Origin: an uncultured Thiotrichaceae bacterium
GTDB taxonomy: Bacteria > Pseudomonadota > Gammaproteobacteria > Thiotrichales > Thiotrichaceae
Direction: 5' to 3'
Assembly: GCA_937925855.1 (NCBI GenBank)
Contig: CALAMO010000020.1
Span: 62,001 to 126,000 of the forward strand
DNA: 64,000 nt
In this document: in pieces, positions 7,962 to 53,398 of the stretch
Position numbering within the stretch: position 1 is the stretch's first letter
How the letters are laid out: each line of letters starts with the position of its first letter
The notes under the pieces: generated by a model
What the model saw: only the letters and a program-made list of their open reading frames with translations
Told to the model about the DNA's origin: nothing
Database searches by the model: none
Translations under genes and position numbers: made by a program

Positions 7962-8575
7962 TTATGCCCGTGCGCATGCTGTGACTGTTCTGCTGCGTTG
8001 GGTTGGCGCTGTTTTAAGGCTAACCATTGCAGGGCAATAATCGTCATTGACGCTTTAATTTTACCAGCGTGGAGCCATTCCATCGCGGTTGCCGTTGGAA
8101 TAATGTGGGTGCGAATATCTTCGTTCTCATTTTCTAGACCGTAGATGCCGGGTGTGCTGTTGCTTAAGTCCAAATTTGCATAGTAAATGCTGATGGTCTC
8201 ATCGCTGCCACCAGCGCTGGGATAGTAATCCAATACGTGCTCCACGGTGGATACGGTGCAGCCCGCTTCCTCCAGCGCTTCTCGCTTGGCAACGTCCCCA
8301 TCACTTTCCCCTTCCTCAACCATGCCTGCAATAATTTCCAGCATCCAAGGACCGTTTGGGTCGGCCAGTGCGCCGGGACGAAATTGTTCGATCAATAGAA
8401 TATGGTCAGTCTGTGGGTCGTGTAGCAGAACGGCGACAGCATGGCCGCGCGCCAGCACTTCACGTTTGAATATTGCCGACCAGCCTCCGGCAAAAAGTTG
8501 GTGTTGTAAGGTGTAAACGTGCAGCTTGAAAAAGCCCTGGTGGGGCGTTTGCTGAGTGATCAATTTGAACTTCAT
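7937..8575 (-). CDS. nudF: ADP-ribose pyrophosphatase-like Nudix hydrolase
   Basis: Cytosolic Nudix enzyme expected to cleave ADP-ribose (and related nucleoside diphosphate sugars) to AMP and ribose 5-phosphate. The 212-residue product has the full Nudix box (G-x5-E-x7-REALEEAG) and the upstream segment (LLIEQFRPG) typical of NudF/TrgB. The downstream YYPSAGGSDE stretch is also typical of this subfamily. Its 3' end overlaps the convergent agmatine deiminase gene. Confidence 0.87.
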   Translation of the reverse strand: MKFKLITQQTPHQGFFKLHVYTLQHQLFAGGWSAIFKREVLARGHAVAVLLHDPQTDHILLIEQFRPGALADPNGPWMLEIIAGMVEEGESDGDVAKREALEEAGCTVSTVEHVLDYYPSAGGSDETISIYYANLDLSNSTPGIYGLENENEDIRTHIIPTATAMEWLHAGKIKASMTIIALQWLALKQRQPNAAEQSQHAHGHNYTRTGSC

Positions 8576-8696
8576 TATTGTCCCGCTGTGCTAGCACAAA
8601 TGAATGAGATATTAATGACGGTTTATCTATATCGCCAATATTTGAGGGCTGAAAAGCAATTGATGTGCCGTAAATACCACATTTAAAAGCAGCATT

Positions 8697-8720
8697 TTAG
8701 CATAAATTGTTTTATGCTAA
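8697..8720. promoter_or_regulatory. 24-bp palindrome, candidate operator of the urate module
   Basis: Perfect 10-bp arms TTAGCATAAA and TTTATGCTAA around a 4-nt centre, about 100 nt upstream of the purine permease start and 120 nt from the divergent Nudix start. No T run follows in either direction, so it reads as an operator rather than a terminator. The binding protein is unknown. Confidence 0.55.
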
Positions 8721-8822
8721 TAAAAACTGCTCAATTCAGTCAGTTTCTTACAACAGTACGCGGCGTGAAACTGAGAGTGTTCGCCAGTATTGCGTCTACT
8801 TCAACCTCAGAGGAGGAGTCAA

Positions 8823-10166: not shown

Positions 10167-10193
10167 TTCAGGCACGACAGGGTTAATTACTAA

Positions 10194-11414
10194 ATGGAAG
10201 CTTATATCATCGAATGGCTCAACTTATTGGGCCGTTGGGTGCACATGATTGTAGGGATTGCCTGGATTGGCGCGTCGTTTTATTTTGTGTGGCTGGATAA
10301 TCATCTCCAGTCGCCCAAAGTAAAGGCCGATGCTGATCAAGGCGTAGGTGGCGAATTGTGGGCTGTGCATGGTGGTGGTTTTTACCACGCACAGAAATAC
10401 ACGGTGTCACCTCCTGAACTGCCGGATACGCTGCATTGGTTTAAGTGGGAAGCTTATACTACTTGGATATCCGGCATGTTCATGCTGATCCTTATTTATT
10501 GGTATAGCGCAGAAATTTATCTGATTGATCCTGACGTGGCGGCGTTGAGTAAGCCGGTTGCGATCTTACTCGGCGCTGCTTTTCTTGGTCTGGGGTGGGT
10601 GGTTTATGATTTACTGTGTAAGTCAGCCCTAGGTAAAGATGAGAAAAAGCTGAGCGCTGCTCTCTTTATTTATGTGGCGGTCGCGGCGTTCCTGCTCTGT
10701 CATTTATTTAGCGGACGCGGCGCTTTCATCCACTTCGGTGCGATGTTGGGGACGATGATGGTTGCCAATGTCTTCTTCGTCATTATGCCGGGCCAACGGG
10801 CCATGGTGGCAGCGGTTAAGGCTGGGCGTTCACCCGATCCGAGTCAAGGGTTGAAAGCCAAACAGCGTTCAGTGCATAACACCTACTTTACGCTGCCGGT
10901 GTTGTTCACCATGATCAGCAATCACTACGCCACGACTTATAGCAGCACTTATAACTGGCTGGTGCTGATTGCAATCTCGCTGGCGGGTGCGTTGATCCGG
11001 GTTTACTTTGTGCAGCGTCATTTTGGCAAGCCGTCGACCACACCGTTATGGGTGGCAGCGGCGTTATTGCTGGGCGTGATTACGGCGCTAAAACCGCCAA
11101 TGGTGGGTTCGACTACAACTCCGACTGTGGCGGCGGTTGCCGGTTCGCAGGCTGAACTATTCGCCTCGGTACAGCAGGTAGTGCAAATGCGCTGTGCTAG
11201 CTGTCATGCCGCGAAACCTACGCAGACTGGTTTTAGTGCGCCACCGCAGGGCATTATCCTAGAGTCGGCGGCGGATATGGTTAAACATGCGACGGCCATC
11301 TATCAGCAGACCGTGGTGAGTAAGGCGATGCCAATCGCCAATCTGACGAAAATCACGGACAAGGAGCGTGCGCTACTCGCACGCTGGTATGAGGCGGGTG
11401 CCAAGCAACAATAA
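10194..11414 (+). CDS. puuD: Membrane urate oxidase (hydroxylase) PuuD with C-terminal cytochrome c domain
   Basis: PuuD oxidises urate to 5-hydroxyisourate and passes electrons to its fused cytochrome c instead of making hydrogen peroxide. The 406-residue product has an N-terminal multi-helix domain starting MEAYIIEWLNLLGRWVH with several conserved histidines, and a C-terminal heme domain with CASCH at 334-338 and a probable Met ligand in SKAMPI. It starts 27 nt after the permease, so the pair is probably an operon for urate uptake and oxidation. Enzymes for the later steps (HIU hydrolase, OHCU decarboxylase) are not in the window. Confidence 0.92.
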   Translation: MEAYIIEWLNLLGRWVHMIVGIAWIGASFYFVWLDNHLQSPKVKADADQGVGGELWAVHGGGFYHAQKYTVSPPELPDTLHWFKWEAYTTWISGMFMLILIYWYSAEIYLIDPDVAALSKPVAILLGAAFLGLGWVVYDLLCKSALGKDEKKLSAALFIYVAVAAFLLCHLFSGRGAFIHFGAMLGTMMVANVFFVIMPGQRAMVAAVKAGRSPDPSQGLKAKQRSVHNTYFTLPVLFTMISNHYATTYSSTYNWLVLIAISLAGALIRVYFVQRHFGKPSTTPLWVAAALLLGVITALKPPMVGSTTTPTVAAVAGSQAELFASVQQVVQMRCASCHAAKPTQTGFSAPPQGIILESAADMVKHATAIYQQTVVSKAMPIANLTKITDKERALLARWYEAGAKQQ

Positions 11415-11440
11415 GCTGCAATTTGTGGTATGCTGCGCCG

Positions 11441-12946
11441 ATGGAAAATCAGTATCTTAGTGACATACGTTTTGATTCATTCGATCTAGATGGTCGCGTA
11501 TTGGCTTCATTGCAGGAAGCCGGTTTTGAGCAGTGCTCACGTATACAGGCTGAAACACTACCGCTTGCGCTAAACGGACAGGATGTAACCGGCCAAGCGC
11601 AGACCGGCACGGGTAAAACCGGTGCCTTTCTGGTCGCAGTGTTTCAGCGCCTTTTGGCTAATCCGGTAGACAATCCAGCGCCCGGTTCCGTGCGCTGTCT
11701 TATTTTGGCTCCAACCCGAGAATTAGCGATTCAAATTGCGCGTGATGCCGAATCGCTAGGCAAGCATACCGGTTTGCGGAGCATCTTGGTCTATGGCGGA
11801 GCGGCCTATGAGAAGCAGCGGCAACAGTTTGAGCAGCCCGTTGACCTGCTGATCGGCACCCCAGGGCGGGTGATCGACTACTGGAAGCAGAAAATATTCA
11901 CGCTTAAACAGGCGCAGGCGATGGTGCTGGATGAAGCGGATCGTATGTTTGACATGGGTTTCATTCAGGATGTGCGCTATTTGTTGCGTAAGCTGCCTGA
12001 GCCTACGCAGCGTCTGAACATGCTGTTCTCTGCAACGCTATCGCAAAAGGTGCTGGAACTGGCCTACGAGCACATGAATAATCCGGTGCCGATTAAAATC
12101 GAAGCCACTTCGGTTAGTGCTGATAATATTGCTGAACACATGTACTTCCCGGCGAATCAGGAGAAAATTCCGCTCTTAGTGGGTTTGATCCGTCAGTTGG
12201 AGCCATTCCGTGCGATTACCTTTGTTAATACGAAGCATAATGCTGAGAAAATTGATGCCTTCCTGCGCACCAATGGCATTAAATCAGCGTTGATTTCTGG
12301 CGATGTGCGCCAGAGTAAGCGCGAGCGCCTTCTTGAGGAATTTTCTGGGGGCAAGCACCAGGTATTGATTGCCACCGACGTGGCGGCACGCGGCCTGCAT
12401 ATCGATGATGTGAGTCATGTGTTTAATTTTGACCTGCCGCAAATTGCTGAGGATTATGTGCACCGTATTGGCCGTACTGCCCGTGCGGGGGCTTCGGGCG
12501 AGGCGCATAGTTTTGCCTGTGAAGACACCGCTTTTTACCTGCCGGATATCGAAGAGTATACCGGTAAGGCGATTCCAGTGACCTCGATCAGTAGCACTAT
12601 GTTACCTGAGTTGGAAAGGCCAAAGCGGATTGAGCGTCAGCGCCCTGGTGGCAAAAATGGCCGAGATAGCCGTGGTCGCGGCAAGCCGGTAGAGCGCAGT
12701 TCCACAGGTGCTGGACGCCCGCGTGGACAGCGTCCGCACAATGCACCTGCTGCGAACCCAAGTGCGGGGCCAAAGCCAGAGCAAGCGTCTGGACAGGCGC
12801 TAACCGTTGCGGCGACCGCAGGTGGGGGAATGCCTGATAGCGGGCGCAGCGCCAATCTGGACGAGCCGAAGAAGAAGCGTCGCCGCCGCAGGCGTAAGCC
12901 AAAAGCACCGGGCACCGCTCCTGTGCCGGAAAACACTCCGTCGTAA
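11441..12946 (+). CDS. rhlB: DEAD-box ATP-dependent RNA helicase RhlB
   Basis: RNA helicase, in enterobacteria a degradosome partner of RNase E. The 501-residue product has the DEAD-box motifs in order: Q motif (CSRIQAETLPLAL), motif I (AQTGTGKT), PTRELA, TPGR, DEAD, SAT, and motif VI HRIGRTARAG. An extended tail rich in Pro, Gly, Arg and Lys (KKKRRRRRRKPK) follows, likely for RNA binding. The ATG at 11441 gives the family N-terminus but lacks a clear Shine-Dalgarno. Confidence 0.9.
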   Translation: MENQYLSDIRFDSFDLDGRVLASLQEAGFEQCSRIQAETLPLALNGQDVTGQAQTGTGKTGAFLVAVFQRLLANPVDNPAPGSVRCLILAPTRELAIQIARDAESLGKHTGLRSILVYGGAAYEKQRQQFEQPVDLLIGTPGRVIDYWKQKIFTLKQAQAMVLDEADRMFDMGFIQDVRYLLRKLPEPTQRLNMLFSATLSQKVLELAYEHMNNPVPIKIEATSVSADNIAEHMYFPANQEKIPLLVGLIRQLEPFRAITFVNTKHNAEKIDAFLRTNGIKSALISGDVRQSKRERLLEEFSGGKHQVLIATDVAARGLHIDDVSHVFNFDLPQIAEDYVHRIGRTARAGASGEAHSFACEDTAFYLPDIEEYTGKAIPVTSISSTMLPELERPKRIERQRPGGKNGRDSRGRGKPVERSSTGAGRPRGQRPHNAPAANPSAGPKPEQASGQALTVAATAGGGMPDSGRSANLDEPKKKRRRRRRKPKAPGTAPVPENTPS

Positions 12947-41143: not shown

Positions 41144-42721
41144 ATGACCCAAGACATCCACTCTGACCGCATCTTAATCCTCGATTTCGGTTCCCAATAC
41201 ACTCAACTCATCGCCCGCCGTGTCCGAGAAATAGGCGTTTACTGCGAAATCTTCCCCTGGGATGTCACTGAACAAGATGTGGCTGCTTTCAACGCAAAAG
41301 GCATTATCCTCGCGGGTAGCCCAGAGTCGGTGTTGGATGATGGCGCACCGTTTGCACCGGCGAATGTGTACACGCAGGGCGTACCCGTCTTAGGTATTTG
41401 TTATGGCATGCAAACCATGGCGCAGCAGCTTGGCGGTAAGGTCGAAGCCTCGGATGAGCGTGAGTTTGGCTATGCCGAAGTGCGTGCCCGTGGGCATACT
41501 GATTTGCTGAAGGGTATTCAGGATCGCACCACGCCCGAAGGTTACGGCATGCTGGATGTGTGGATGTCGCACGGCGATAAGGTCACGGCAATCCCGGATG
41601 GTTTTAAGCTGATGGCGAGTACAGCTAGTGCACCAATTGCGGGCATGGCGGATCAGGCGCGGCGTTTCTATGGCGTGCAGTTCCATCCTGAGGTGACACA
41701 CACCACGCAGGGCATGGCGATCTATCAGCGCTTTGTGAATGATATTTGTGGTTGTAAAAGCCTGTGGACGACGGCAAATATTATTGAGGATAACATCGCT
41801 AACGTGCGTGCCCAGGTGGGTGATGATGAAGTGATTCTGGGTCTGTCCGGCGGGGTGGATTCGTCGGTGGTGGCGGCATTATTGCACCGCGCGATTGGTG
41901 ATCAGCTGACCTGTGTGTTTGTCGATACCGGTTTGCTGCGTCATAACGAGGGTGATCAGGTCATGGCTATGTTCGCGGAGAACATGGGCGTACGGGTGAT
42001 CCGGGTGAATGCGAAGGAACGTTATCTGGCGGCGCTGGCGGGAGAGGCTGACCCAGAGGCGAAGCGTAAGATTATTGGGCGTTTGTTCGTGGAAATTTTT
42101 GATGAAGAATCAGCCAAGCTGAGGAATGCGAAGTGGCTGGCGCAGGGCACGATTTATCCCGATGTGATTGAATCAGCAGGCAGTAAAACCGGCAAGGCGC
42201 ATGTGATTAAGTCGCATCATAATGTCGGTGGGCTGCCGGAGGATATGAAGCTGGGACTGGTTGAACCGCTGCGTGAATTGTTTAAAGACGAGGTGCGGAT
42301 CATGGGGGTGGCGCTGGGGCTGCCCCATGCCATGGTGTATCGCCATCCGTTTCCGGGGCCGGGTTTGGGCGTGCGGATTTTGGGTGAAGTGAAGCAGGAG
42401 TTTGCTGAGCTGCTGCGGCTGGCGGATCATATCTTCATCGAAGAGTTATACAAGAATGACCTGTATGACAAAACCTCACAGGCATTTGCGGTGTTCCTGC
42501 CGGTGAAGTCGGTGGGGGTAATGGGTGATGGGCGGCGCTATGACTATGTGATTGCGCTGCGCGCGGTGGAGACGATTGATTTTATGACGGCGCGCTGGGC
42601 GCACCTGCCCTATGACTTCTTGGACTTGGTGTCGCGCCGGATTATTAACGAGGTCAAAGGGATTTCGCGCGTGGTGTATGACGTGTCGGGTAAGCCGCCT
42701 GCGACGATTGAATGGGAGTGA
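41144..42721 (+). CDS. guaA: GMP synthase (glutamine-hydrolysing)
   Basis: Aminates XMP to GMP. The 525-residue product has the class I glutamine amidotransferase domain (nucleophile in [15 protein letters not shown]) and the ATP pyrophosphatase domain (LSGGVDSSV) with the C-terminal dimerisation domain ending PPATIEWE. The ATG at 41144 gives exactly the usual length. Co-transcribed with guaB. Confidence 0.97.
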
Positions 42722-42726
42722 CGGTG

Positions 42727-43494
42727 ATGTCCCAGCACTTAAGCCGAGAACAGCTCAGCCATTTTGTCCGCTTCGGCTATGTGATTTTGCCGCAGGTGGC
42801 GACGCCGGAACAGCTGGTGCAGCTACGAGCGACGACTGAGGCTGAGCTGGCGGCGCGGCATGAGCCGTTTGAACTGGAGGCCGATGTACAATACCCCGGT
42901 GCGCCCGTTTCAGCGGCGGCTGAGGGCGGGCAAACTATTCGGCGTTTGCTCCAGGCGTATACGCGGCATGAGGTTTACCAGAACTGGGCGGAACACCCCG
43001 CAGTGACCGCTAGTGTTAAGCAGCTTTTGGGCTGTGAGCAGCTGCTGCTGTCGCCGAATCACCATAATTGCATGATGACGAAACAGCCTGCGTTTAGCTC
43101 GCATACGCACTGGCATCGTGATACGCGCTACTGGCGTTTCTCGGATAAGTACCTGATTAATTCATGGCTGGCGTTGGGCGATGAAAAAGCCGAAAACGGG
43201 GGCATGATGATCCTGCCGGGGTCGCATCGTTGGGATGTGAAGCCTGAGGCGCTGGATGCCGCGCAGTTTTTGATTGAGGATCATCCGGCTAATCTGGGGC
43301 GGCTGACTCTGGCGCGGCAGGTGGATTTAAACGCTGGCGACTGTCTGCTGTTTAGCGCGCATTGTTTTCATGCGGCGGGGGCGAATAAGACGGATCAGCG
43401 GAAATTTTCGTTGGTGTTTACCTACCACGGCGAGGGTACGCAAGGCATCGCGGGAACGCGGTCGGCGGTTTTAGCACCGGTAGTGCTGCCGTAG
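42727..43494 (+). CDS. Phytanoyl-CoA dioxygenase (PhyH) family Fe(II)/2-oxoglutarate oxygenase
   Basis: Non-heme iron oxygenase that hydroxylates a small molecule. The 255-residue product has the facial triad HxD (H130, D132 in HWHRDTRYW) and a distal histidine (H215 in AHCFHAAGAN), with R225 as the likely 2-oxoglutarate anchor. The ATG at 42727 follows GGGAG and starts 5 nt after guaA stops, so it may be transcribed with guaBA. The substrate is unknown. Relatives act on ectoine, betaine-like and other amino-acid derivatives. Confidence 0.85.
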   Translation: MSQHLSREQLSHFVRFGYVILPQVATPEQLVQLRATTEAELAARHEPFELEADVQYPGAPVSAAAEGGQTIRRLLQAYTRHEVYQNWAEHPAVTASVKQLLGCEQLLLSPNHHNCMMTKQPAFSSHTHWHRDTRYWRFSDKYLINSWLALGDEKAENGGMMILPGSHRWDVKPEALDAAQFLIEDHPANLGRLTLARQVDLNAGDCLLFSAHCFHAAGANKTDQRKFSLVFTYHGEGTQGIAGTRSAVLAPVVLP

Positions 43495-43507
43495 GGTAGC
43501 TGAGGCC

Positions 43508-44176
43508 TTATTGCGGTAGAAAATCCTCTAGCATGCTGACAATTCGCTTATCCTCCGGTGCGACATGGCTGGGGAAGCTGGCGATTAACTCGCCTTTATG
43601 AATCAAATATTTATGGAAGTTCCATGCCGGATATTCGCCCGCTAATGTGCCCAGCGTAGTATATAGCGGTGAGGCCGACGCCTGGGCGGCGTGCAGTTTT
43701 TCAAACATGGGAAACGAGGTTTTATACTGGCCGTGGCAGACGCTGGCGATTTCTTTTTCGCTGCCGGGGTCTTGGCTGCCAAAATCATTGGACGGCATGC
43801 CGAGCACTACGAAACCACGCGCTTTATATTGCTGGTAGATGTTTTCCAGCCCGCTGAACTGTGGGGTGAAGCCGCAGTGGCTGGCGGTGTTCACCACTAG
43901 CACCGTTTTATCTTTATATGCGGCACACAGATCGATGGTTTGGTCGCTGTTTAACTTGCGCAGGCTAAAGTTGAGCGTGGCCGGACAGTTTTGTGCCGCT
44001 GTTGTAGCCGCTGTTGGACTACTATCGTTCGCAGCTGCTGTTGGCAGTGGGCTAATGAATAAGCAGAAGGCGAATAGTGTGGCTGTGCTAAAGCCCATTC
44101 GGCGGCGAGTGCGGCGGTGCATCATGGCGGCTAGCGAGCGGCAGCGGGCGGTTAAATGGGCTGGATAACTAAACAT
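43508..44176 (-). CDS. Glutathione peroxidase family protein (Cys type), exported
   Basis: Thiol peroxidase reducing hydroperoxides. The domain at about 66-222 has catalytic C101 in NTASHCGFTPQ, the glutamine in the SQDPG stretch and tryptophan in AWNFHKYL. Cysteine replaces selenocysteine. The N-terminus (ATG at 44176, AGGA 8 nt upstream) carries an Arg-rich segment and a hydrophobic stretch at about 30-49, suggesting export or a membrane anchor after an unusually long n-region. An internal ATG would give a more normal signal peptide but has no ribosome site. Confidence 0.87.
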   Translation of the reverse strand: MFSYPAHLTARCRSLAAMMHRRTRRRMGFSTATLFAFCLFISPLPTAAANDSSPTAATTAAQNCPATLNFSLRKLNSDQTIDLCAAYKDKTVLVVNTASHCGFTPQFSGLENIYQQYKARGFVVLGMPSNDFGSQDPGSEKEIASVCHGQYKTSFPMFEKLHAAQASASPLYTTLGTLAGEYPAWNFHKYLIHKGELIASFPSHVAPEDKRIVSMLEDFLPQ

Positions 44177-44301
44177 GAGGCTATTCCTTCAGATTAAGCC
44201 CCTGTTGTAGCAGATTTCAGCTCAGGCCTTCAGAAACGCTAGTGGGAGTAGGGTTGGCCTGCTGTGCCTGCGCTGTGGGCGAGCGCCCATAAAGCTTATG
44301 C

Positions 44302-45648
44302 TCAGGCATAGGTGCGCATAACGCTGCGGATGCCCTGTTCCAGCAGATCCATCATCTGATCGATTTGTGCGCGGTTAATAATGAGCGGCGGGGAAAAAAC
44401 ACACATATTGTTAATGGGCCGCACAATCAGCCCCCGCTTTTGGCAATGTTCATCGATCTGATAGCCCAGCGCCTGATCCTGTTGCAGCGTGCCGTCGCCC
44501 CCGTCGAGCGAGCATTCGACACAGCCAATCAGCCCCATGCCGCGCACATCACACACGATGGGCAGGGCGCGCAGCTGTTGCAGTCGCTGCTGGAAATATG
44601 GGGTGATGTCGCGCACCTGTTGCAGCATATTTTCCCGCTCGATAATTTCAATGTTCTTTAAGGCGGCGGCGCAGCTGACGGGATGGCCGGAATAGGTATA
44701 GCCGTTGGAGAACGTGGCCTTATACCCCTGTAGGTCCTGCATCAGCCGATCAGAGATAATGCAGGCGCCCAACGGCACATAGCCAGAGGTAATGCCTTTG
44801 GCGGTGGTGATCATGTCTGGCTGAATATCGAAGACGGTCTCTGAGGCAAACCAGTGGCCGAGGCGACCAAAGGCGGTGACCACTTCATCAGAAATATACA
44901 GCACATCGTAGCGCCGACAGACTTCAAGGCAGCGCTTATGGTAGCCCGGCGGTGGGATGATCACACCACCGGATGCCAGAATGGGTTCAGCAATAAACGC
45001 GCCGACCCGCTCTGGCCCCAGCGTAACAATGGCCTGTTCCAGCTCGTTCACCTTCGCCGTGCAGAACTGTTCAATACTCTGTTCCTGCGGGCGGCGGAAG
45101 GGGTTAACGTGCCCGAGGAAGTGGCTCAGCTCGGCGGAGGTGTCCATAAAGCTGCGGTCGCGCTCCTTACCGGATACGGAGGCGGCGAGATAGCTGCTGC
45201 CGTGGTAAGCCTGCTGACGCGAGATCACCACTTTTTTCTCGGGCCGTCCGCGAACATTATTATAAAAGTGCACAAAGCGCAGCGCGCTATCGACCGCTGT
45301 GGAGCCGCCGGTGGTGAAAAAGACATGATTCAAATCACCGGGCGCTAGCGTGGCGATTTTGGCGGCGAGTTGGGTCGCTGGCTGTGCGGTTAGGTTCCAG
45401 GGGGAGTAATAGGCGGTCTGCATCACCTGGGCGGCGATGGCATCGGCCATTTCTTGTCGTCCGTAGCCAATCTGCATACACCACATGCCGCCGGGGCCAT
45501 CAATCAGCTGACGGCCCTGTTCATCGCGGACATAAATACCCTCGGCGGACTGCGCGAGGGTGCGCTGCTGCGTCCCGTAATCCGCCATGCCTTCCCAGGG
45601 GTGAACAAAATGCTGATTGTCGAAGGCGCGCTGTTGGTCGATATTCAT
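44302..45648 (-). CDS. Class III PLP-dependent aminotransferase
   Basis: Omega-amino-acid or diamine transaminase of the pyruvate/2-oxoglutarate type. The 448-residue product has the PLP-binding aspartate in ISDEVVTAFGR and the Schiff-base lysine in TTAKGITSGYVPLGA. The ATG at 45648 has AGGA 9 nt upstream. It starts 16 nt after marC, at the end of the probable betaine operon. The substrate is unresolved. Relatives use taurine, beta-alanine or putrescine. Confidence 0.88.
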   Translation of the reverse strand: MNIDQQRAFDNQHFVHPWEGMADYGTQQRTLAQSAEGIYVRDEQGRQLIDGPGGMWCMQIGYGRQEMADAIAAQVMQTAYYSPWNLTAQPATQLAAKIATLAPGDLNHVFFTTGGSTAVDSALRFVHFYNNVRGRPEKKVVISRQQAYHGSSYLAASVSGKERDRSFMDTSAELSHFLGHVNPFRRPQEQSIEQFCTAKVNELEQAIVTLGPERVGAFIAEPILASGGVIIPPPGYHKRCLEVCRRYDVLYISDEVVTAFGRLGHWFASETVFDIQPDMITTAKGITSGYVPLGACIISDRLMQDLQGYKATFSNGYTYSGHPVSCAAALKNIEIIERENMLQQVRDITPYFQQRLQQLRALPIVCDVRGMGLIGCVECSLDGGDGTLQQDQALGYQIDEHCQKRGLIVRPINNMCVFSPPLIINRAQIDQMMDLLEQGIRSVMRTYA

Positions 45649-45664
45649 GGCTAGGTATCCTGTG

Positions 45665-46306
45665 TTATGACGCGATGAGACCCCTGATGCCGTCAGCAAT
45701 ATACTGCACTGAAAGTGCTGCGAGCAGCACGCCGAGGAGACGGGTGAAAATCATTTTGCCGTTGTTACTGATATATTTATCCAGCCTTTCTGCGGCGATT
45801 AAGACGATGACCGTTAATAGCATTAGGGCAATAATAATGCCCATTAGCACCAAGATACCTAGCCAGGCATTATGGTTGCCAGCGGCCGACATTTGGGAGG
45901 ATAAGATAATCGTGGCCGAAATGGTGCCGGGGCCGGCCAGCAAAGGAATCGCCAGCGGAAAAACCGCAATATTGGAAATATGATCCTTGAGCGCCGATTC
46001 TGAAATCTGTTCTTTGCGCTCCTGTCGTTTGGCGTAAAGCATCTCAAAGGCAGTGTAAAACAAGAGTAAACCACCTGCGACCCGAAAGGCATCGATAGTA
46101 ATGCCCATCGCATCGAGGATACCCGTACCGGTAACTGCGAACAGGCCTAGGATTAAGAATGCGATTATACCGCCACGTAGCGCAACCGAGCGCCGCGCCA
46201 GTGTGCTCATACCCGCCGTTAAGCCGAGAAACAATGGGGCATTGCCCACGGGGTCAATCGTGACAAACAGGGTCACAAAGGCATTTAGGATAAGATCAGC
46301 TGTCAC
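45665..46306 (-). CDS. MarC family integral membrane protein
   Basis: Six-helix inner-membrane protein (UPF0056/MarC) of unknown substrate. Members have been suggested to move small amino-acid-like molecules. The 213-residue product opens with the family signature FVTIDPVGNAPLFLGLT and contains PLAIPLLAGPGTIS. It lies between the Rieske oxygenase (41-nt gap) and the aminotransferase (16-nt gap), so a transport role for that pathway is plausible. Confidence 0.9.
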   Translation of the reverse strand: MTADLILNAFVTLFVTIDPVGNAPLFLGLTAGMSTLARRSVALRGGIIAFLILGLFAVTGTGILDAMGITIDAFRVAGGLLLFYTAFEMLYAKRQERKEQISESALKDHISNIAVFPLAIPLLAGPGTISATIILSSQMSAAGNHNAWLGILVLMGIIIALMLLTVIVLIAAERLDKYISNNGKMIFTRLLGVLLAALSVQYIADGIRGLIAS

Positions 46307-46347
46307 GGGTATATTCCCTGGCCGCGACTCTGCGGTGATTATAGTGT

Positions 46348-47592
46348 TTAACCATCGTATCTATTTGCCAGCGTGCTGAGATAGTTTGAGTAAAAGTCGG
46401 CTATCCCACCTTCCATCTGCGATAGCGGGCCACCGCGATAGTGCAGTGAGTTTACCCCAGCCTGATTATGGCGAATGATCTTTTCATCGGCCTGTGTGGT
46501 GACATCCCACAGCCAGATGAGTTTTTCAAGGTCATAGTCGCGGCCTGCCTCTGCTTCTGCTTGCACCAGCCACACGGTTTGTATTTCGGTTTCTTGTGGG
46601 CCAGTCGGCAGGAAGCGATAGCCCACCACATGATCTGAGTACAGCAGAAAGTTATTCAGCATGCCGATTTGCAGGTCGGTGGCTCCGCCGTCGTAGCTGC
46701 TGAGCGTGCCTAATAATGGGGCTAAGGGCTGGCCGTCTTCACTGCCAGTGTCATAGCCTGGATACAGCGGATAGCGGCGGTAGTATGCGCTGTGGCCCGC
46801 ATGCTGCCCGCTAGTATCCGTCATCGAGATTTCTGTTGTGGGCAAGCCGGCGCTAATACAGCGCCTATGCAATTCCGGCGTCATACGGACGAAGGCCTCG
46901 GGGTCTTTGATACTATGTGAGCGGGCGTATTCGCGGTGTGATGGCGCGCAGTGATAGCATTCCATGTAGTTCTCAAGCGCCAGTTTCCAGTTAGCGGCGA
47001 CCGGGTAGCTGGCTTGATGCACTACTTTCAGCTGCTCCAACCCAAAAGGTTGCGTCAGCGGGGCCAGCCGCGCAAGTTCTGCCGCTAGCGGCGGCGGGTT
47101 GGCGGCTAAGGAAATAAACAGCAGCCCCTGATACTCGACTAAATGGGCCGGTAACAGCGGGTAGTCCTCGCGCTTAAAGTCCTCCGGCATCAGGTGTAGC
47201 CGTCCAGCGCGCAGTTCGCCATTCAGCTGATAGCTCCAGGCATGATAAGGGCAGGTAAAGCGGCGTGCATTGCCGCTTTGTTCCAGGCAAACCCGCGAGC
47301 CGCGATGGCGACAAACATTGAGGTGGGCGTGCAGCTGGCCGCTTTCATCCCGCGTGATAATGACGGACTCTGTGCCAAACTCAAATAGGAAATAATCGCC
47401 GCTGTTCGGTAGCTGGCTGCTGTGTCCGACCCAATGCCAGCTCTCGCCCCAGTAGTGCTGGAGGTCGTATTGATAGATCGCGTCTGAGGTGTAGAAGTCA
47501 CGTTCTAGCGCGAAACCGGGCGGTTGGCGGGCGATTAAGCGGCACAGCTTATCTGGGCTGAGTGCAGGGTGCAGTGTGGGGTGGGTGGGCAT
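46348..47592 (-). CDS. Rieske oxygenase alpha subunit, quaternary-ammonium (betaine) type
   Basis: Likely N-demethylates a betaine such as glycine betaine or proline betaine. The 414-residue product has the Rieske cluster site C94-x-H96 and C114-x2-H117 (CRHRGS, CPYHAW) and the catalytic iron site H214/H219 in ECYHCAPSH. The bridging residue is glutamate (E211) rather than the usual aspartate, as in carnitine monooxygenase CntA and related betaine oxygenases. No reductase partner is adjacent. Its ATG overlaps the stop of the flavoprotein gene by one base. Confidence 0.87.
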   Translation of the reverse strand: MPTHPTLHPALSPDKLCRLIARQPPGFALERDFYTSDAIYQYDLQHYWGESWHWVGHSSQLPNSGDYFLFEFGTESVIITRDESGQLHAHLNVCRHRGSRVCLEQSGNARRFTCPYHAWSYQLNGELRAGRLHLMPEDFKREDYPLLPAHLVEYQGLLFISLAANPPPLAAELARLAPLTQPFGLEQLKVVHQASYPVAANWKLALENYMECYHCAPSHREYARSHSIKDPEAFVRMTPELHRRCISAGLPTTEISMTDTSGQHAGHSAYYRRYPLYPGYDTGSEDGQPLAPLLGTLSSYDGGATDLQIGMLNNFLLYSDHVVGYRFLPTGPQETEIQTVWLVQAEAEAGRDYDLEKLIWLWDVTTQADEKIIRHNQAGVNSLHYRGGPLSQMEGGIADFYSNYLSTLANRYDG

Positions 47593-49697
47593 TAGGCAGA
47601 CTCCAGGGAAGGCATTTCGCGCCGGAATAGGGCTTGTTCAATGCGCAGCGGATCCGCCTGGAAATTCTCTGCGGCTAAATGACCGTTAAACACCGCATCG
47701 GCAATTAGGCCGGGCGATAGCGCATCACCGATTAAGGTGATCTGCCAGTCCGCTTTGGCGGCTTCGGTTTGCTTGAGCGCGTCTAGCGCCTGATAAAGCG
47801 AGGTGTCCGGCAGGCGCTCTGTCACTAGGATCAGGGTGGCGCAGGCGATGGCGTCGGTGGTGCCGGTGTAGTGACAGCGGGTTTGTACCGAATCAGCATC
47901 GACCTTATGCAGGGTTTTACCGGTGATAATCTGTACGTTCTGTTGCAACAGCGTGGCCTGAATGCGTTCTTGTTCCAGCGTGTGCTCCGTCCACGGTGAC
48001 ACGACGCTGGCTGGGGTGACGAAGGTCACGGTGTGACCGCTGCTGCTGAGCTGATCGGCGATGACTCCAGCCATATACGCCTGATCATCATCGTAAATCA
48101 CCACTGGCCCGGCGGCGATGGCGTGTCCGGCCATGATTTGGTCTGGGGTGAGTACACTCATACCGCTGCTGCTAGCAACAGACTGAGGTCGCTGGCTAAG
48201 TCCGGCCAGCGGTGTACGCTGACTGCGGCCAACGCCATCTGCGCGCCAGTGCGAGCCGGTGGCGAGAAAGATATTGCTGATGCCTAATTCCTGCACCATG
48301 GCGGCATCGACGCGGCTGTCGGTATATAGCGCTACGTTCGGTAATTGCTTCAGCGCATAAGTGCGGTAATCAGCGACGCGGCCCCAGGCCGATAAGCCTT
48401 TGAGCGCGGCTTCTGTTCTGACCCGTCCGCCCAGCTGTGTGTGGGCTTCGCTTAGAATGACCTGATAGCCACGTTTCGCTAGCTGCAAGCTGCATTCCAG
48501 CCCGGCTGGCCCAGCGCCGACCACCAGTGTCTGCGCGTCTGATTTTTTCGGGCTGGCGCGTTCGGGATGCCAGCCACGACGCCATTCCTCGCCCATCGTT
48601 GGATTTTGAGTGCAGCGGATTGGCACGCCGAGATTATCTGCGGAAACGCAGATGTTACAGCCGATACATTCGCGAATTTCGTCGCTGCGGTTGTCGCGGA
48701 TTTTGTTCGGTAGATAAGGATCGGCAATCGAGGGGCGCGCGGCTCCAATCAAATCAACCACGCCGCGTTTCACCATCGATACCATGGTGTCTGGTGAATT
48801 TAGGCGGCCTACTGCGACTACGGGTTTAGTGGTGACCTGTTTGACAAATTCGATATAGGGGGTCTGATAGCCCTCTTGCAGCGCAAAACGTGTGGTTTGC
48901 GAATCATTCGACCAGTCCGAGACATTCACATCCCACAGGTCAGGCAGCTCGGCCAATAGTTCTACCACGGCGCGACCCTCTTCTTGAGCCTGCATGCCGT
49001 CCATGCCTTTCAGCTCGTCTACCGCAAAGCGGAAGGCCACGGCACAGCTATCGCCAACGGCTTCCTGGGTGTCTTGTAGAATTTCACGGGTCAAGCGGAT
49101 GCGGTTCTCTAGACGGCCACCGTATTCATCGCTGCGGGTATTAAATTCGGGCAGCATAAATTGTTGGGTCAACGTCATGCCGTGTCCGGCGTAGACATAG
49201 ATAATATCGAATCCGGCCTGTTTAGCGTTGAGCGCGGCTTGACGATGCCAGCGCCGCAGTTCACGGATGTCACGTTTATCCATGGCCCGCGCCTGGAGTG
49301 TGTTCACCGCATGCTGGGCCATAGGGCTCGGTGCTAGCGGGGGGGTGCGCGAGAACAGGTTGGGTGAGTGGTAGCCGTTATGCGCCAGTTCGATCGCCGC
49401 TAACGCGCCGTGCTGGTGCACCGCCTCGGTCATTAGCTGTAAGGCGGGGATATCGCGCTTATCCCACAGCCGCTGTTCCGCGTAGGGCGATAGGTCTGAG
49501 CTGGGATGAATTTCAGTTTCTTCGGTGCTGACCACCGCCCAGCCACCTTCGGCTTTCATACCGCGCATAGCGGCGTGAGCTTGGGGGCGCAGATGGCCCA
49601 TGCCGCAGCAGTGTGGCACCTGATAAAAGCGGTTTTTGGCGGTGACCGGGCCAATTTTTACTGGCTCAAACAGGATGTCATAAGGGCGGGTGGACAT
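47592..49697 (-). CDS. Trimethylamine dehydrogenase-like FMN/4Fe-4S/FAD oxidoreductase (DgcA/StcD-like)
   Basis: Probably oxidatively demethylates a methylated amine released by the Rieske enzyme. The 701-residue product has an Old Yellow Enzyme barrel (KIGPVTAKNRFYQVPHC, IELAHNGYH), a 4Fe-4S site at C344, C347, C350 and C362 (CIGCNIC; CTQNP) followed by EEWRRGWHPE, and a dinucleotide domain (VVGAGPAGLE). Cofactor spacing and the GWHPE motif match trimethylamine and dimethylglycine dehydrogenases. It is coupled to the Rieske gene by TAATG. Confidence 0.87.
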   Translation of the reverse strand: MSTRPYDILFEPVKIGPVTAKNRFYQVPHCCGMGHLRPQAHAAMRGMKAEGGWAVVSTEETEIHPSSDLSPYAEQRLWDKRDIPALQLMTEAVHQHGALAAIELAHNGYHSPNLFSRTPPLAPSPMAQHAVNTLQARAMDKRDIRELRRWHRQAALNAKQAGFDIIYVYAGHGMTLTQQFMLPEFNTRSDEYGGRLENRIRLTREILQDTQEAVGDSCAVAFRFAVDELKGMDGMQAQEEGRAVVELLAELPDLWDVNVSDWSNDSQTTRFALQEGYQTPYIEFVKQVTTKPVVAVGRLNSPDTMVSMVKRGVVDLIGAARPSIADPYLPNKIRDNRSDEIRECIGCNICVSADNLGVPIRCTQNPTMGEEWRRGWHPERASPKKSDAQTLVVGAGPAGLECSLQLAKRGYQVILSEAHTQLGGRVRTEAALKGLSAWGRVADYRTYALKQLPNVALYTDSRVDAAMVQELGISNIFLATGSHWRADGVGRSQRTPLAGLSQRPQSVASSSGMSVLTPDQIMAGHAIAAGPVVIYDDDQAYMAGVIADQLSSSGHTVTFVTPASVVSPWTEHTLEQERIQATLLQQNVQIITGKTLHKVDADSVQTRCHYTGTTDAIACATLILVTERLPDTSLYQALDALKQTEAAKADWQITLIGDALSPGLIADAVFNGHLAAENFQADPLRIEQALFRREMPSLESA

Positions 49698-49706
49698 GAG
49701 CTACTC

Positions 49707-50921
49707 CTACTGTGTGATTAGGCCGCAGTCGCGTAGGTGTTCCATAAACTTGCGCCGCCGCTGGTATTTCTCGATTAAGGTCTGGAATCTGGGTGTGAAC
49801 TGCTCCGTTTCCCCTTCTTGCGCCGCTAGATCGTGCAAATCGTTGAGGTGCTTAGCGGCTTGGGCATAGCCTTTGGCTTGGCCTTGTTCGACCAGCTGTG
49901 CGGCTTCCTGCCAGAGTTCTTCCTTGCGCGCGCTTAATTTCGCCAGCTGGGTGGCGCGTTTCTTGGCCGCGATTTGACGTTTGTGCTCGGCGGCGGCGGC
50001 GGCTTTTTGGGCGGCTTCTTTTTCTATTTTATAACGGTAGTTTTGACAGGTATCAAGCAGCGCCTGGATACCGCGTCGTTCCGGTGATGTGGTGTGTGTC
50101 GTCGGCTCTGCATCGGCAGTGTGTTCAGTGGCGTTGGCCTGCTGCCAGAGCATTTTTAGGCGACGATTCAGATGGAGTTCGAGCTTATCTTCGCCCCGAC
50201 TGAGCCGCAGCAGGTAGTCGTCTTTCTCCGGCAGTGATAACAGTGGTAGCCATTCTTCTGGCTTGAATGCGGGCTGCTTGGACAGGGGCGGGCTGTTCAG
50301 GGCCAGTGCCGCAATGTCGAGCCGGTCGATTTGCAGCAGCTCAGCAAATGCCTGTTGTGCTCGGGATAAGTCCTGCAAGCCCGCTGGTAATGGGGGCTCT
50401 GTGGTGTCTTCCGCAATCTCATCGTCACACAATGCCTGTTCTGCGGCTTTAAACCAGGCCAGGTATAACACTCGTAAATCGCCGCGCAGCAATTCATCGC
50501 GCAGCAGCAGCATCTCATTCAGCCAGCCGCTGCCTTCGATGGCGTCGCCTTCACCGTCTGTGCTATCGGCCTGCGCATTGATCGCTTTGAAATGCAGGTC
50601 GAGCATAATATGGCTGCCGCTGCGGTAGTGGCTGATCGTATCCGCAATAAGAAAATCATCGCACTGGCTGGCTTCAAACAGGCTGGCAGGCAGGCGGAAC
50701 AGCAAGCGGCGCGCGCCTGCGCTGTTCACATGGAGCATTAGGTCGAACATATTATGTACGAGCTGCTCAGCATCACCGCGAAAAGCACCGTACTGGTAGA
50801 CAAACTCAGCGCGGCGATTATTGATGGTGGCGCGGCTGGAAAGGTGCTGTAACTCGTCTATTTGTGAGGGGGTCAGTGATCGGTCGATGGCCCTGAAATC
50901 GTAATATTGATAATCGCTCAT
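49707..50921 (-). CDS. Conserved protein of unknown function
   Basis: I recognise the opening MSDYQYYDFRAIDRSLT as one that recurs in uncharacterised bacterial proteins, but no function. The 404-residue product is soluble, with acidic middle regions and a basic Ala/Lys-rich coiled coil at about 290-370 (KEAAQKAAAAAEHKRQIAAK). There is no signal peptide or catalytic motif I can name. It begins the probable operon with the flavoprotein (9-nt gap) and the Rieske gene. Confidence 0.8.
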   Translation of the reverse strand: MSDYQYYDFRAIDRSLTPSQIDELQHLSSRATINNRRAEFVYQYGAFRGDAEQLVHNMFDLMLHVNSAGARRLLFRLPASLFEASQCDDFLIADTISHYRSGSHIMLDLHFKAINAQADSTDGEGDAIEGSGWLNEMLLLRDELLRGDLRVLYLAWFKAAEQALCDDEIAEDTTEPPLPAGLQDLSRAQQAFAELLQIDRLDIAALALNSPPLSKQPAFKPEEWLPLLSLPEKDDYLLRLSRGEDKLELHLNRRLKMLWQQANATEHTADAEPTTHTTSPERRGIQALLDTCQNYRYKIEKEAAQKAAAAAEHKRQIAAKKRATQLAKLSARKEELWQEAAQLVEQGQAKGYAQAAKHLNDLHDLAAQEGETEQFTPRFQTLIEKYQRRRKFMEHLRDCGLITQ

Positions 50922-51090
50922 GAATTTTTATAGTGCCGTTAGTCGATAGGGTGGTCTCAATGGTAGCGATGATAACAAATCGTAACGGGTCTTGGGTATG
51001 CATGTAACGCGATGTGACTACTTATCGGGCCGGTGGTTGTTGAGTCTTTGTCGATCCGTGCGGGGATACATAGACGGGGCAGCGGCCCGT

Positions 51091-51261
51091 TTATTGGCAA
51101 CAGCCTTCTAGCGTTTCACGCGCAGTCACAACACAGCAGATACGAGTGGCTACTGCGGGTTTGTGAAAGAGTTCGGCTGCGTCCATGGTGCAGTAGGTTT
51201 CCCAGGTGATACCGGTGGGGTCTTGTATCCATGTTTTATCGAACTTGGTGTAGCAACACTC
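51091..51261 (-). pseudogene. C-terminal remnant of an ArsI/CadI-like glyoxalase-fold gene
   Basis: 57 codons, ending in TAA at 51091-51093, read ECCYTKFDKTWIQDPTGITW and continue WETYCTMDAAELF, ending EGCCQ. This matches the C-terminal end of ArsI/CadI-type proteins, including the paired cysteines. Upstream in the same frame the similarity vanishes as base composition turns AT-rich, so the N-terminal two thirds are missing. The break coincides with the edge of the EcoRI island. Confidence 0.7.
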
Positions 51262-51537
51262 GGTTAATTTGTATGAGTGTTTTAATATGATTTTCCGCGT
51301 ACTGAGTGAGTTGGACGTTAGTTGAAAACTATGCGATTAGAGCGTACGATTGTGAGTCTGCAATAATTAAGAGTTTTACAAAGAATGAAATATTTCATTT
51401 CGCGGAATTTTTTTTTGAACGAAACAGCCAAAAATTTTTGATTATGATGTAAAAGTTTTCAGAAAATTATGAGTGGTAATTTTGATGCATATGTGATTTT
51501 TAGTTTAATTAGAAATTAAAAGCGAGAAGCAAGAAAT
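51262..51537. other. AT-rich leader of the restriction-modification island
   Basis: Sharp shift to AT-rich sequence. It contains a 16-bp perfect palindrome AATGAAATATTTCATT (51384-51399) and long T and A runs, and presumably the endonuclease promoter, though no confident -35/-10 pair is visible. No transposase, integrase or terminal repeat was seen. Confidence 0.6.
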
Positions 51538-52374
51538 ATGGCTAAGAAAAGCCAGTCGAATAGATTAACAGAACAGCATAAGCGTTCTAAAGGTGTGGTT
51601 GGAATATTTGGCGAAGATGCAAAAGTGCACGATTTTACTGTTGGAAAAATATCAAGAATAGTTGTTGACCAACTTTATAAAAAATATCCTCAGCTGTCCT
51701 TTCGATATAGAACAAGTATTAAAAAAGAAGAGATAAATGCGGCGCTCCAAAAGATTGACCCAGAACTAGGGCAAACCCTTTTTGTATCAAAGTCTAGCAT
51801 TAAACCTGATGGTGGTATAGTGGAAGTTAAAGATGATGGCGGTAACTGGAGGATTGTGCTGGTTACAGAGGCCAAACATCAAGGAAAAGATATAGAAAAT
51901 ATAAAGAAAGGTATTTTGGTTGGTAAGAATAGCGATCAGGATTTAATGGCTGCTGGTAATGCGATAGAGAGGTCGCATAAAAACATATCAGAGATAGCAA
52001 ATCTGATGTTGTCTGAGATTTATTTTCCTTATGTGTTGTTTTTGGAAGGCTCAAATTTTTTGACAAAAAATATTTCAATTGAAAGGCCTGATGGGAGAAT
52101 TGTCGATCTTGAGTATAATTCAGGAGCTTTAAATAGGTTGGACAGGCTAACTTCTGCGAATTATGGAATGCCCATAGATAAAAACCTATGTTTAAATAAA
52201 TTTGTCAAAAACAATAATAAGGTGGTTATGTTGCAAGCAGCATCAATATATTCTCAAGGCGATGGGTTGAGTTGGGATCCTAAAAAGATGTTTGAGGTAA
52301 TGATGGACGTTTCCAGTACATCCCTTAAGGCGTTGGGAGGTGATTTATTTGCTCAGTTGACTGCTGGTAGCTAA
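51538..52374 (+). CDS. ecoRIR: Type II restriction endonuclease, EcoRI isoschizomer
   Basis: Predicted to cut G^AATTC. The 278-residue product aligns over its full length with EcoRI as I know it (QSNRLTEQHK, PQLSFRYR, KPDGGIVEVKDD, EAKHQGKDI). The catalytic residues D91, E111 and K113 are at the same numbers. The recognition segment AGNAIERSHKN keeps N141, E144 and R145, and R200 and R203 are kept. The gene is strongly AT-rich compared with its surroundings, a sign of transfer. The methyltransferase gene follows after 37 nt, the same order as the plasmid-borne EcoRI system. No controller gene is present. Confidence 0.95.
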   Translation: MAKKSQSNRLTEQHKRSKGVVGIFGEDAKVHDFTVGKISRIVVDQLYKKYPQLSFRYRTSIKKEEINAALQKIDPELGQTLFVSKSSIKPDGGIVEVKDDGGNWRIVLVTEAKHQGKDIENIKKGILVGKNSDQDLMAAGNAIERSHKNISEIANLMLSEIYFPYVLFLEGSNFLTKNISIERPDGRIVDLEYNSGALNRLDRLTSANYGMPIDKNLCLNKFVKNNNKVVMLQAASIYSQGDGLSWDPKKMFEVMMDVSSTSLKALGGDLFAQLTAGS

Positions 52375-52411
52375 TTGAGATTTAACGAATGCAAACTTGG
52401 ATAGATTGTTA

Positions 52412-53398
52412 ATGGCACGACAAGCAACAAATAAAATATTGCAAAAAGCAAAGAAATCAAAGAGCGATGAATTTTACACTCAGCTTTGTGACATAGAAAG
52501 TGAGTTGAAGTATTACAAAGCTCATTTTAAAAATAAAGTTATTTTTTGTAACTGTGACGACCCTAGGATAAGTAATTTCTTTAGATATTTTTCTTCTAAT
52601 TTTGAAAAGCTGGGTGTTAAGAAGGTATTAGCGGCCTGCTATAGAGAACAAGTAAGAGACTTATTTAGTGAGCAGAGTAATGAAAATGGTTTTTTTCTGG
52701 AGTATGAAAATACTGCCGAGGAACAAGTTCAGTTACAATCGCTTGGGGTCACTTCCTTTGAGGGAGATGGCGACTTCAGAAGTCCAGAAAGTATTGAGTT
52801 GCTGAAAAAAGCGGATGTTGTTGTGACTAACCCACCATTTTCTCTATTCAGGGAGTACGTTGAACAATTAATTAAATATGATAAGAAATTCCTAATCATT
52901 GGTAATGTAAACGCGATAACCTATAAAGAGATTTTTAAACTGATTCAGGAAAATAAAGCATGGCTGGGTATTAATCTTGGGAGGGGCGTGTCCGGCTTTA
53001 TCGTGCCTGAGCACTACGAACTTTATGGGACAGAAGCTAGAGTTGATGCGGAGGGAAACCGCATCGTCTCTCCAAATAATTGTCTGTGGTTAACTAATTT
53101 AGATACTTTTAGGCGGCATGAAGATATTATTCTTACAAAGAAATACTATGGAAATGAATGTGATTATCCTAAGTATGATAATTATGATGGCATAAATGTC
53201 AATAGAACAAAAGATATACCCTCTGATTACCAGGGAGCTATGGGGGTTCCGATAACCTTTCTGCATAAATTTAACCCTGAACAGTTTGAAATCATTAAGT
53301 TTAGAAAAGGGAATGATGGGAAAGACCTGGCAATTAATGGGAATTGTCCCTATTTTAGAATACTAATAAAAAGCAAACGCATCGCTAATCACTTATAA
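52412..53398 (+). CDS. ecoRIM: EcoRI-type adenine-specific DNA methyltransferase
   Basis: Protects host DNA by methylating the inner adenine of GAATTC. The 328-residue product starts MARQATNKILQKAKKSKSDEFYTQ-like, as in M.EcoRI, and has the catalytic NPPF motif (VVTNPPFSLF). The ATG at 52412 gives the family N-terminus. The TTG at 52397 would add five residues. It has a poor ribosome site and low GC like its partner. The next gene downstream returns to host composition within about 40 nt. Confidence 0.94.
   Translation: MARQATNKILQKAKKSKSDEFYTQLCDIESELKYYKAHFKNKVIFCNCDDPRISNFFRYFSSNFEKLGVKKVLAACYREQVRDLFSEQSNENGFFLEYENTAEEQVQLQSLGVTSFEGDGDFRSPESIELLKKADVVVTNPPFSLFREYVEQLIKYDKKFLIIGNVNAITYKEIFKLIQENKAWLGINLGRGVSGFIVPEHYELYGTEARVDAEGNRIVSPNNCLWLTNLDTFRRHEDIILTKKYYGNECDYPKYDNYDGINVNRTKDIPSDYQGAMGVPITFLHKFNPEQFEIIKFRKGNDGKDLAINGNCPYFRILIKSKRIANHL

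Follow-up and report, generated by a model that had tools for sequence, protein, structure and literature searches.

In the DNA analysed here (the window, a stretch of 64,000 nucleotides from contig CALAMO010000020.1 of an uncultured Thiotrichaceae bacterium), five open reading frames (ORFs) are aligned on the minus strand between positions 44302 and 50921. Three of them, coding for a flavoprotein, a Rieske oxygenase and an aminotransferase, constitute a predicted cassette for the breakdown of a quaternary ammonium compound. In the order of transcription, the five genes are:

49707..50921, minus strand: uncharacterised protein of 404 residues; no Pfam or NCBIfam match; probably a host-lineage gene outside the conserved unit
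47592..49697, minus strand: flavoprotein of the trimethylamine/histamine dehydrogenase family (FMN, [4Fe-4S]), 701 residues; PF00724, 6.6e-69; core member
46348..47592, minus strand: Group V (quaternary-ammonium type) Rieske non-haem iron oxygenase, 414 residues; PF00355 and PF00848; core member
45665..46306, minus strand: MarC family membrane protein, 213 residues; PF01914, 8.2e-52; host-lineage gene between core genes
44302..45648, minus strand: class III aminotransferase (Aminotran_3; NCBIfam PRK07036); NF005447, 690.9 bits; core member

All five ORFs were present at the coordinates of the first-pass annotation of this DNA. The intergenic gaps, in the order of 404-residue protein, flavoprotein, Rieske oxygenase, MarC and aminotransferase, are 9, -1, 41 and 16 bases, and the ATG of the Rieske gene begins at the final base of the flavoprotein stop codon. 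For the aminotransferase, the ATG at 45648 is a likelier start than the TTG at 45699 that was listed. Gene linkage, cofactor and catalytic residues, and the nearest families were read directly from the sequence. The gene families given in the first-pass annotation were nearly right, the Pfam domains Oxidored_FMN, Rieske with Ring_hydroxyl_A, MarC and Aminotran_3 being detected in the four assigned proteins, and the 404-residue protein, described there as uncharacterised, indeed matched nothing in either database. The designation as a five-gene operon agrees with the layout (coordinates, strand and gaps) but, as a conserved unit, applies to three genes only. A scan of positions 43400-51600 gave seven promoter-like sites against 6.0 expected, which is the level of chance, and 14 terminator-like sites against 8.3 expected, and was not used as evidence.

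The Rieske oxygenase and its electron donor

The Rieske protein carries C94/H96/C114/H117 as ligands of the [2Fe-2S] cluster and H214/H219/D369 (2-His-1-Asp) as ligands of the iron, all of which are kept in 14 of 14 members of its clade and in all 96 aligned rows save for one unresolved X in the C94 column. The glutamate bridge noticed at first pass was confirmed by alignment, E211 being placed on E205 of CntA, and E211 together with a Cys-X-X-Cys pair (C212/C215) is kept in 96 of 96 rows. In an excerpt of PMC10952381, the Cys pair is described as unique to some members of Group V. According to excerpts of PMC7948474, Group V is divided by the residue at CntA position 203, an aromatic residue being that of the carnitine, choline and benzalkonium enzymes (Group Va) and Asn that of GbcA and Stc2 (Group Vb); in Stc2 a substrate analogue is bound through its carboxylate on the iron, and the substrates named for CntA are carnitine and gamma-butyrobetaine. 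The corresponding residue of the window enzyme is Y209, which is Tyr in all 14 clade members, and over the 96 rows the position is occupied by Y (89), F (3) or N (4). CntA, choline monooxygenase and OxyBAC (Group Va) share with the window enzyme this Tyr, the bridging Glu and the Cys pair; Stc2 shares the bridging Glu and the Cys pair but has Asn at the position aligned with Y209. By these residues, the window Rieske has the marks of a Group V enzyme with the Group Va aromatic residue.

Among solved structures, the highest score was obtained with Stc2 (4qup/3vca, 216.6 bits), whereas CntA gave 130.8 bits in an alignment covering query residues 25-226 only. The best NCBIfam match was the GbcA model (NF058607) at 281.7 bits, well under its cut-off of 670, and identity with GbcA was rejected at this score; the residue type of the Group Vb betaine demethylases was likewise rejected from Tyr209. 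The reported mismatch to the gbc system is borne out by the score and also by the lack of an adjoining GbcB, and the window Rieske differs from CntA, too, in having no adjoining reductase. Taken on residues and scores, the enzyme is probably not a glycine-betaine or proline-betaine demethylase.

That the cassette demethylates a carboxylate betaine is a reading that we consider unlikely, although it ranks ahead of the other alternatives below. A carnitine-like compound or the betaine of gamma-aminobutyrate (GABA) or beta-alanine would then be likelier than glycine betaine or stachydrine, and the demethylated product (GABA or beta-alanine) could be used by the aminotransferase. The full-length similarity to Stc2 and the family match to GbcA speak for this reading, and a longer carboxylate betaine is compatible with Tyr209 because CntA, with the same Tyr, itself takes carnitine and gamma-butyrobetaine (PMC7948474, in part). 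It is opposed by the absence of Asn, by the low GbcA score, by the acidic pocket of the flavoprotein and by the transporter genes of related loci, both described below.

Three reductase queries gave no match in window positions 34302-61000, about 10 kb on each side of the cluster (E 1e-12, 75 bits), in agreement with the annotation that no reductase is present, nor in the 13 nearest relatives or the 80 genome loci described below (10 loci are in both sets). A reductase hidden in the cluster was thus rejected, and the lack of an adjacent reductase is usual among these enzymes. Elsewhere in the own genome five FAD_binding_6 proteins were found. The one on contig C11 is the most suggestive, and its reductase is a candidate for the unlinked electron donor of the window Rieske. 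At this site (8005-10220), a separate Rieske oxygenase gene overlaps the gene of the PaaE/GbcB-like reductase, which stays below the cut-offs of both models.

The flavoprotein and its pocket

The best solved relatives of the flavoprotein are the histamine dehydrogenases 3k30 (737 bits) and 6de6 (675 bits); 6l6j gave 672 bits and trimethylamine dehydrogenase (1djn) 511 bits. The description of this protein as trimethylamine/dimethylglycine dehydrogenase-like was correct as to the family and as to the overlap with the Rieske gene, but the protein is nearer to histamine dehydrogenase. Cys30 for covalent FMN, the Fe-S cysteines C344/C347/C350/C362 and the catalytic triad Y169/H172/D265 are kept. 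The pocket is formed by E60/E74/H110/W262/D354; its three acids, E60, E74 and D354, do not vary among the 13 flavoproteins of the clade, that of the window included. Trimethylamine dehydrogenase belongs to the same family and has the covalent-FMN Cys and the [4Fe-4S] Cys in common, but its aromatic bowl, which we take to be Y60/W264/W355, corresponds to E60/W262/D354 in the window, two of the three residues being acids. Trimethylamine dehydrogenase was therefore rejected as the identity of the flavoprotein, since E60 and D354 replace Y60 and W355.

The same residues bear on another reading, in which the Rieske enzyme hydroxylates the carbon adjacent to the quaternary nitrogen to give trimethylamine and an aldehyde, or an aldehyde that retains the nitrogen, and the flavoprotein handles the product amine. 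Y209 is the signature of Group Va, with CntA and the choline monooxygenases among its members (PMC7948474, in part), but the flavoprotein, lacking two of the three bowl residues, is not an obvious oxidiser of trimethylamine, and we regard this course as improbable.

For the histamine dehydrogenases, an excerpt of PMC10180351 gives Gln65, Ile74, Phe77, Glu79, Asn115, Tyr181, Trp267 and Asp358 as the proposed histamine-binding residues, and agmatine, putrescine or 1,3-diaminopropane as further substrates. In the window flavoprotein the equivalents of Glu79, Trp267 and Asp358 are kept, positions 74 and 77 are Leu and Tyr, and position 181 was not scored. The likeness to histamine dehydrogenase (3k30, 6de6), the nearest over the full length, thus includes the cofactor residues, the triad and these three pocket residues, whereas Gln65 and Asn115 are replaced by Glu60 and His110, and the window flavoprotein is coupled to a Rieske gene. 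An acidic pocket of this composition would fit a dication.

A second flavoprotein of the family, with 48-50% identity, is encoded on contig C42 of the own genome (7407-9446). By eye, the genes next to it were taken for those of a cupin, a UPF0261/Tm-1-like protein, a kinase-like protein, an aminotransferase and TctA-type transport, and a Tm-1-like gene likewise adjoins the flavoprotein gene of a Yoonia locus (L021).

Related loci and the origin of the cassette

Relatives of the Rieske gene came from a search of plasmids and a scan of genome contigs, the genome loci used here being the best 80 of at least 581 confirmed candidates. Among plasmid records, 248 had a Rieske match, of which seven were viewed in the first round, and 103 had a flavoprotein match and 31 an aminotransferase match, with four viewed for each. 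The 13 nearest relatives consist of the 10 best genome loci (L031-L040) and three of seven Leisingera plasmid records (L016, L017, L115), and belong to Rhodobacterales apart from one Hyphomicrobiales metagenome-assembled genome (MAG). Because the longest-ORF script used for the loci misses genes in high-G+C DNA, counts were taken from tblastn; many loci end at contig edges, and absences there are lower bounds. The labels metK, purU, BCCT, UPF0261 and kinase-like were assigned to genes of the loci by eye, without family search. Neighbourhood clustering was made with 24 loci and the window.

The Rieske proteins of L031-L040 are 53-60% identical to that of the window, and these loci contain the flavoprotein (44-68% identity) in 10 of 10 cases and the aminotransferase (60-64%) in six. 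The flavoprotein gene is present in all 13 nearest relatives, and in 12 of them it lies directly upstream on the same strand, often overlapping, with L039 as the exception; a flavoprotein of at least 44% identity occurs near 13 of the 80 genome loci. A check of co-occurrence, proposed for all five genes, thus gave a positive answer for the flavoprotein (13/13) and the aminotransferase (6/13) but a negative one for MarC and the 404-residue protein (0/80). As judged from these loci, the conserved core is a cassette of flavoprotein, Rieske oxygenase and aminotransferase that the window has in common with marine alphaproteobacteria.

The contiguous order of flavoprotein and Rieske genes favours consecutive steps. 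This argues against a reading in which the two genes are merely co-regulated in amine catabolism, with a diamine or histamine dehydrogenase as the flavoprotein and a different compound as the substrate of the Rieske enzyme. The nearest solved relatives, histamine dehydrogenases active also on agmatine, putrescine or 1,3-diaminopropane (PMC10180351, in part), and the presence of this pocket in flavoproteins whose genes have no annotated Rieske gene next to them are in its favour; on balance we hold it to be decidedly improbable.

The aminotransferase scored 690.9 bits with NF005447 (PRK07036), above the family cut-off of 618, and 505 bits with the solved structure 3i5t, but the name of this family carries no function, and a role in polyamine metabolism was considered because of the neighbours of its relatives. 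Copies with 48-64% identity lie within 10 kb of 14 of the 80 related Rieske genes, in three Rieske clades, and a fifteenth copy, in L101, looks broken. The two more distant of these clades are represented by L041-L043, L058 and L060 and by L081, L089 and L107, and in a Shinella locus (L113) the aminotransferase gene adjoins a Rieske gene of only 28% identity. In all four aminotransferase loci without Rieske that were viewed (L114, L116, L117, L118), the annotation shows an aldehyde dehydrogenase in the vicinity, named gamma-aminobutyraldehyde dehydrogenase in L118; Pot-type transport genes are present in L114, and one lies at the edge of L116. The own genome gave nine aldehyde dehydrogenase matches, all with 38% identity or less to that of L114. 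In L118 (Eleftheria terrae plasmid, 8321-12789), the aminotransferase relative lies inside a polyketide cluster, next to a SET-domain lysine methyltransferase, a TauD-like dioxygenase and the gamma-aminobutyraldehyde dehydrogenase.

Among the 13 nearest relatives, the binding protein of a Pot-type transporter (polyamine family) was found in 10, a BetI-like regulator in 11 (the regulator tested falls under the BetI cut-offs), an MttB-family protein in six (below the cut-off for trimethylamine methyltransferase) and agmatinase in four, all Leisingera. Of the 23 solved matches of the Pot-type binding protein, 21 are named polyamine binders, many being variants of one protein. This transporter speaks against a carboxylate betaine, though a BCCT-like gene (by eye) occurs in L034; the MttB-family and GcvT-like genes that adjoin relatives speak for one, an excerpt of PMC12478193 naming mostly betaines (carnitine, gamma-butyrobetaine, proline betaine; also choline) as substrates of the MttB-superfamily enzymes that demethylate quaternary amines. 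In the own genome a Pot operon is located on contig C31, with a binding protein only 24% identical to that of Leisingera, and contig C8 carries together an agmatinase, a glutamine-synthetase-like gene and another aminotransferase.

A second architecture was seen in L018, L041, L043, L058 and L060, where a distant Rieske gene is accompanied by a Pot-type ABC transporter, an aminotransferase of the same family, a GcvT/DmdA-like aminomethyltransferase and FAD amine oxidoreductases; a second Rieske protein (24-30% identity) is present in all of these except L060. Marine gammaproteobacterial clusters L081, L089 and L107 contain Rieske, aminotransferase and GcvT-like proteins. FAD oxidoreductases and a PurU-like gene (by eye) are added in L081 and L089, agmatinase-like genes in L081 and L107, and a glutamine-synthetase-like gene related to gamma-glutamylputrescine synthetase in L089 and L107.

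MarC and the 404-residue protein had been placed in the pathway, and this part of the annotation was abandoned. Matches to either were absent from all 80 genome loci, from L016, L017, L018 and L021, and from eight further loci (four genome stretches, one of them on the contig of L048, and four regions around other Rieske genes of the own genome), which covers all of the 13 nearest relatives but L115. Homologues of both occur elsewhere in relatives of the host. MarC orthologues of 70-80% identity were found in other contexts in four of 33 related genomes, and MarC is clearly a host-lineage gene that does not belong to the conserved unit. The 404-residue protein has one orthologue of 64% identity, in another context, in a genome of the same genus, and homologues of 33-40% in four of 273 other genomes of the class, one of them with three stops; it is probably also a host-lineage gene outside the conserved unit, its native origin being less certain than that of MarC because an orthologue is present in only one of the 33 genomes. 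Its AlphaFold model (mean pLDDT 47) was of no use.

The core genes show the opposite distribution. The flavoprotein was absent from all 33 related genomes at E <= 1e-60, the Rieske had only relatives of 33-36% identity in three of 56, and for the aminotransferase the 33 genomes had only genes of 41% identity or less. Trees were made with 22 flavoprotein, 27 aminotransferase and 96 Rieske rows, weaker matches (including the 28% Rieske of L113) and translations with stops being dropped. The window flavoprotein falls in a clade with 12 other Rieske-adjacent ones (ultrafast bootstrap/SH-aLRT 100/99), as sister to that of the Hyphomicrobiales MAG (95/99). The window Rieske falls in a clade of 14 with SH-aLRT 100, in a quick search without bootstrap or characterised enzymes. 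The aminotransferase groups with four Ruegeria genes and one Leisingera aquaemixtae gene (95/88), in a tree flagged by the program for long branches. These distributions and trees suggest that the core cassette was transferred from alphaproteobacteria and that the operon was assembled around host genes. They are the basis of the claim because composition does not mark the core as recent: its G+C (0.568-0.580) is like that of the flanks, and the argument from base composition was dropped.

Outside the five-gene run, a complete EcoRI-type restriction-modification pair is located at 51538-53398 on the plus strand, divergent from the run and within an A+T-rich island (G+C 0.36); its endonuclease aligns with EcoRI over 274 residues (455 bits), and its methylase has a Pfam match. 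On the other side, a PhyH-family dioxygenase, weakly similar to ectoine hydroxylase, is encoded at 42712-43494 on the plus strand, immediately after guaA.

The proposed pathway and its meaning

We infer the substrate class, the order of steps, the electron donors and the downstream steps as follows. The acquired cassette is proposed to break down a compound with both a quaternary ammonium group and an amine, a reading to which we assign a probability of roughly 0.45; the cassette probably strips methyl groups from the quaternary compound and then removes the amine, and the substrate may be a methylated polyamine. The cation would be taken up, in the relatives probably by the Pot-type ABC transporter encoded beside the cassette. 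With electrons from an unlinked reductase, the Rieske enzyme would hydroxylate an N-methyl group, giving formaldehyde and a tertiary amine. The flavoprotein, through its acidic pocket, would oxidise C-N bonds of the resulting amine for further demethylation or for deamination, its electrons passing through the [4Fe-4S] cluster. Finally, the aminotransferase would turn the primary amine into an aldehyde that enters the amino-aldehyde catabolism of the host, MarC and the 404-residue protein being passengers.

The annotated removal of methyl groups from a betaine is thus retained as to methyl removal, which is consistent with a quaternary-ammonium Rieske enzyme coupled to an amine-oxidising flavoprotein. 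The betaine itself is doubtful because the Rieske enzyme lacks the Asn and scores 281.7 bits against the GbcA cut-off of 670, and because the pocket is acidic and histamine-dehydrogenase-like.

Several observations weigh against a quaternary compound carrying an amine. The Rieske enzyme scores higher with Stc2 than with CntA, and the enzymes with Tyr at position 203 include CntA, which acts on a carboxylate betaine (PMC7948474, in part); the MttB-superfamily substrates named in the excerpt of PMC12478193 would also fit a betaine. The acidic pocket is not specific to the proposed pathway, because it is present in flavoproteins with no annotated Rieske gene within 12 kb (L111, L112) and in that of L113, where the Rieske gene is 12.7 kb away; in L039 a clade Rieske is paired with a flavoprotein of another subclade without E60 and E74. 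The aminotransferase is missing from seven of the 13 nearest loci, several of which are from related Rhodobacterales and hence are not independent. No Pot-type transporter lies beside the cassette in the window. The family of this transporter is also a broad one: the ATPase of the relatives scores 348 on a 2-aminoethylphosphonate model, close to the 360-367 of the polyamine models, and these scores do not distinguish the two types.

In the most specific form of the proposal, the cassette would serve specifically for the breakdown of methylated polyamines with a quaternised end or of similar dications, such as trimethylputrescine-like compounds or fragments of diatom-silica polyamines. The Rieske enzyme would open the quaternary end, the acidic-pocket flavoprotein would remove the methyls or nitrogen that are left, and the diamine would enter putrescine catabolism by way of the aminotransferase. 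Diatom silica holds N-methylated long-chain polyamines, which together with trimethylputrescine-like compounds are possible natural sources. So narrowly defined, the substrate seems to us improbable. An N-methylated heterocycle such as homarine or trigonelline is highly improbable: catabolism of homarine has recently been described in environmental bacteria, as cited in an excerpt of PMC13390433, but no ring-processing gene was recognised in the cassette, and the residues, the transporter and the aminotransferase point to aliphatic amines.

The suggestion made at first pass that the substrate may be new was supported. In the literature searched, with most subscription papers outside its reach, nothing was found on this gene set or on a pathway for quaternised polyamines, nor any paper on a histamine dehydrogenase together with a Rieske enzyme. 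The kinds of enzymes are already known, and it is the combination of genes and the probable class of substrate that were not met there.

Much of the dissolved organic nitrogen in the sea consists of quaternary and methylated amines, and to our knowledge gene assignments for their consumption are mostly limited to glycine betaine, choline, carnitine and trimethylamine. The present case is also a warning that probable quaternary-amine enzymes are concealed behind automatic labels such as "aromatic ring-hydroxylating dioxygenase". The pair of Rieske oxygenase and histamine-dehydrogenase-like flavoprotein, often accompanied by the same aminotransferase and Pot-type uptake, is conserved in several marine genera of Rhodobacterales and appears to have moved into a gammaproteobacterium, and it offers a concrete, testable lead to a compound not yet assigned to genes.

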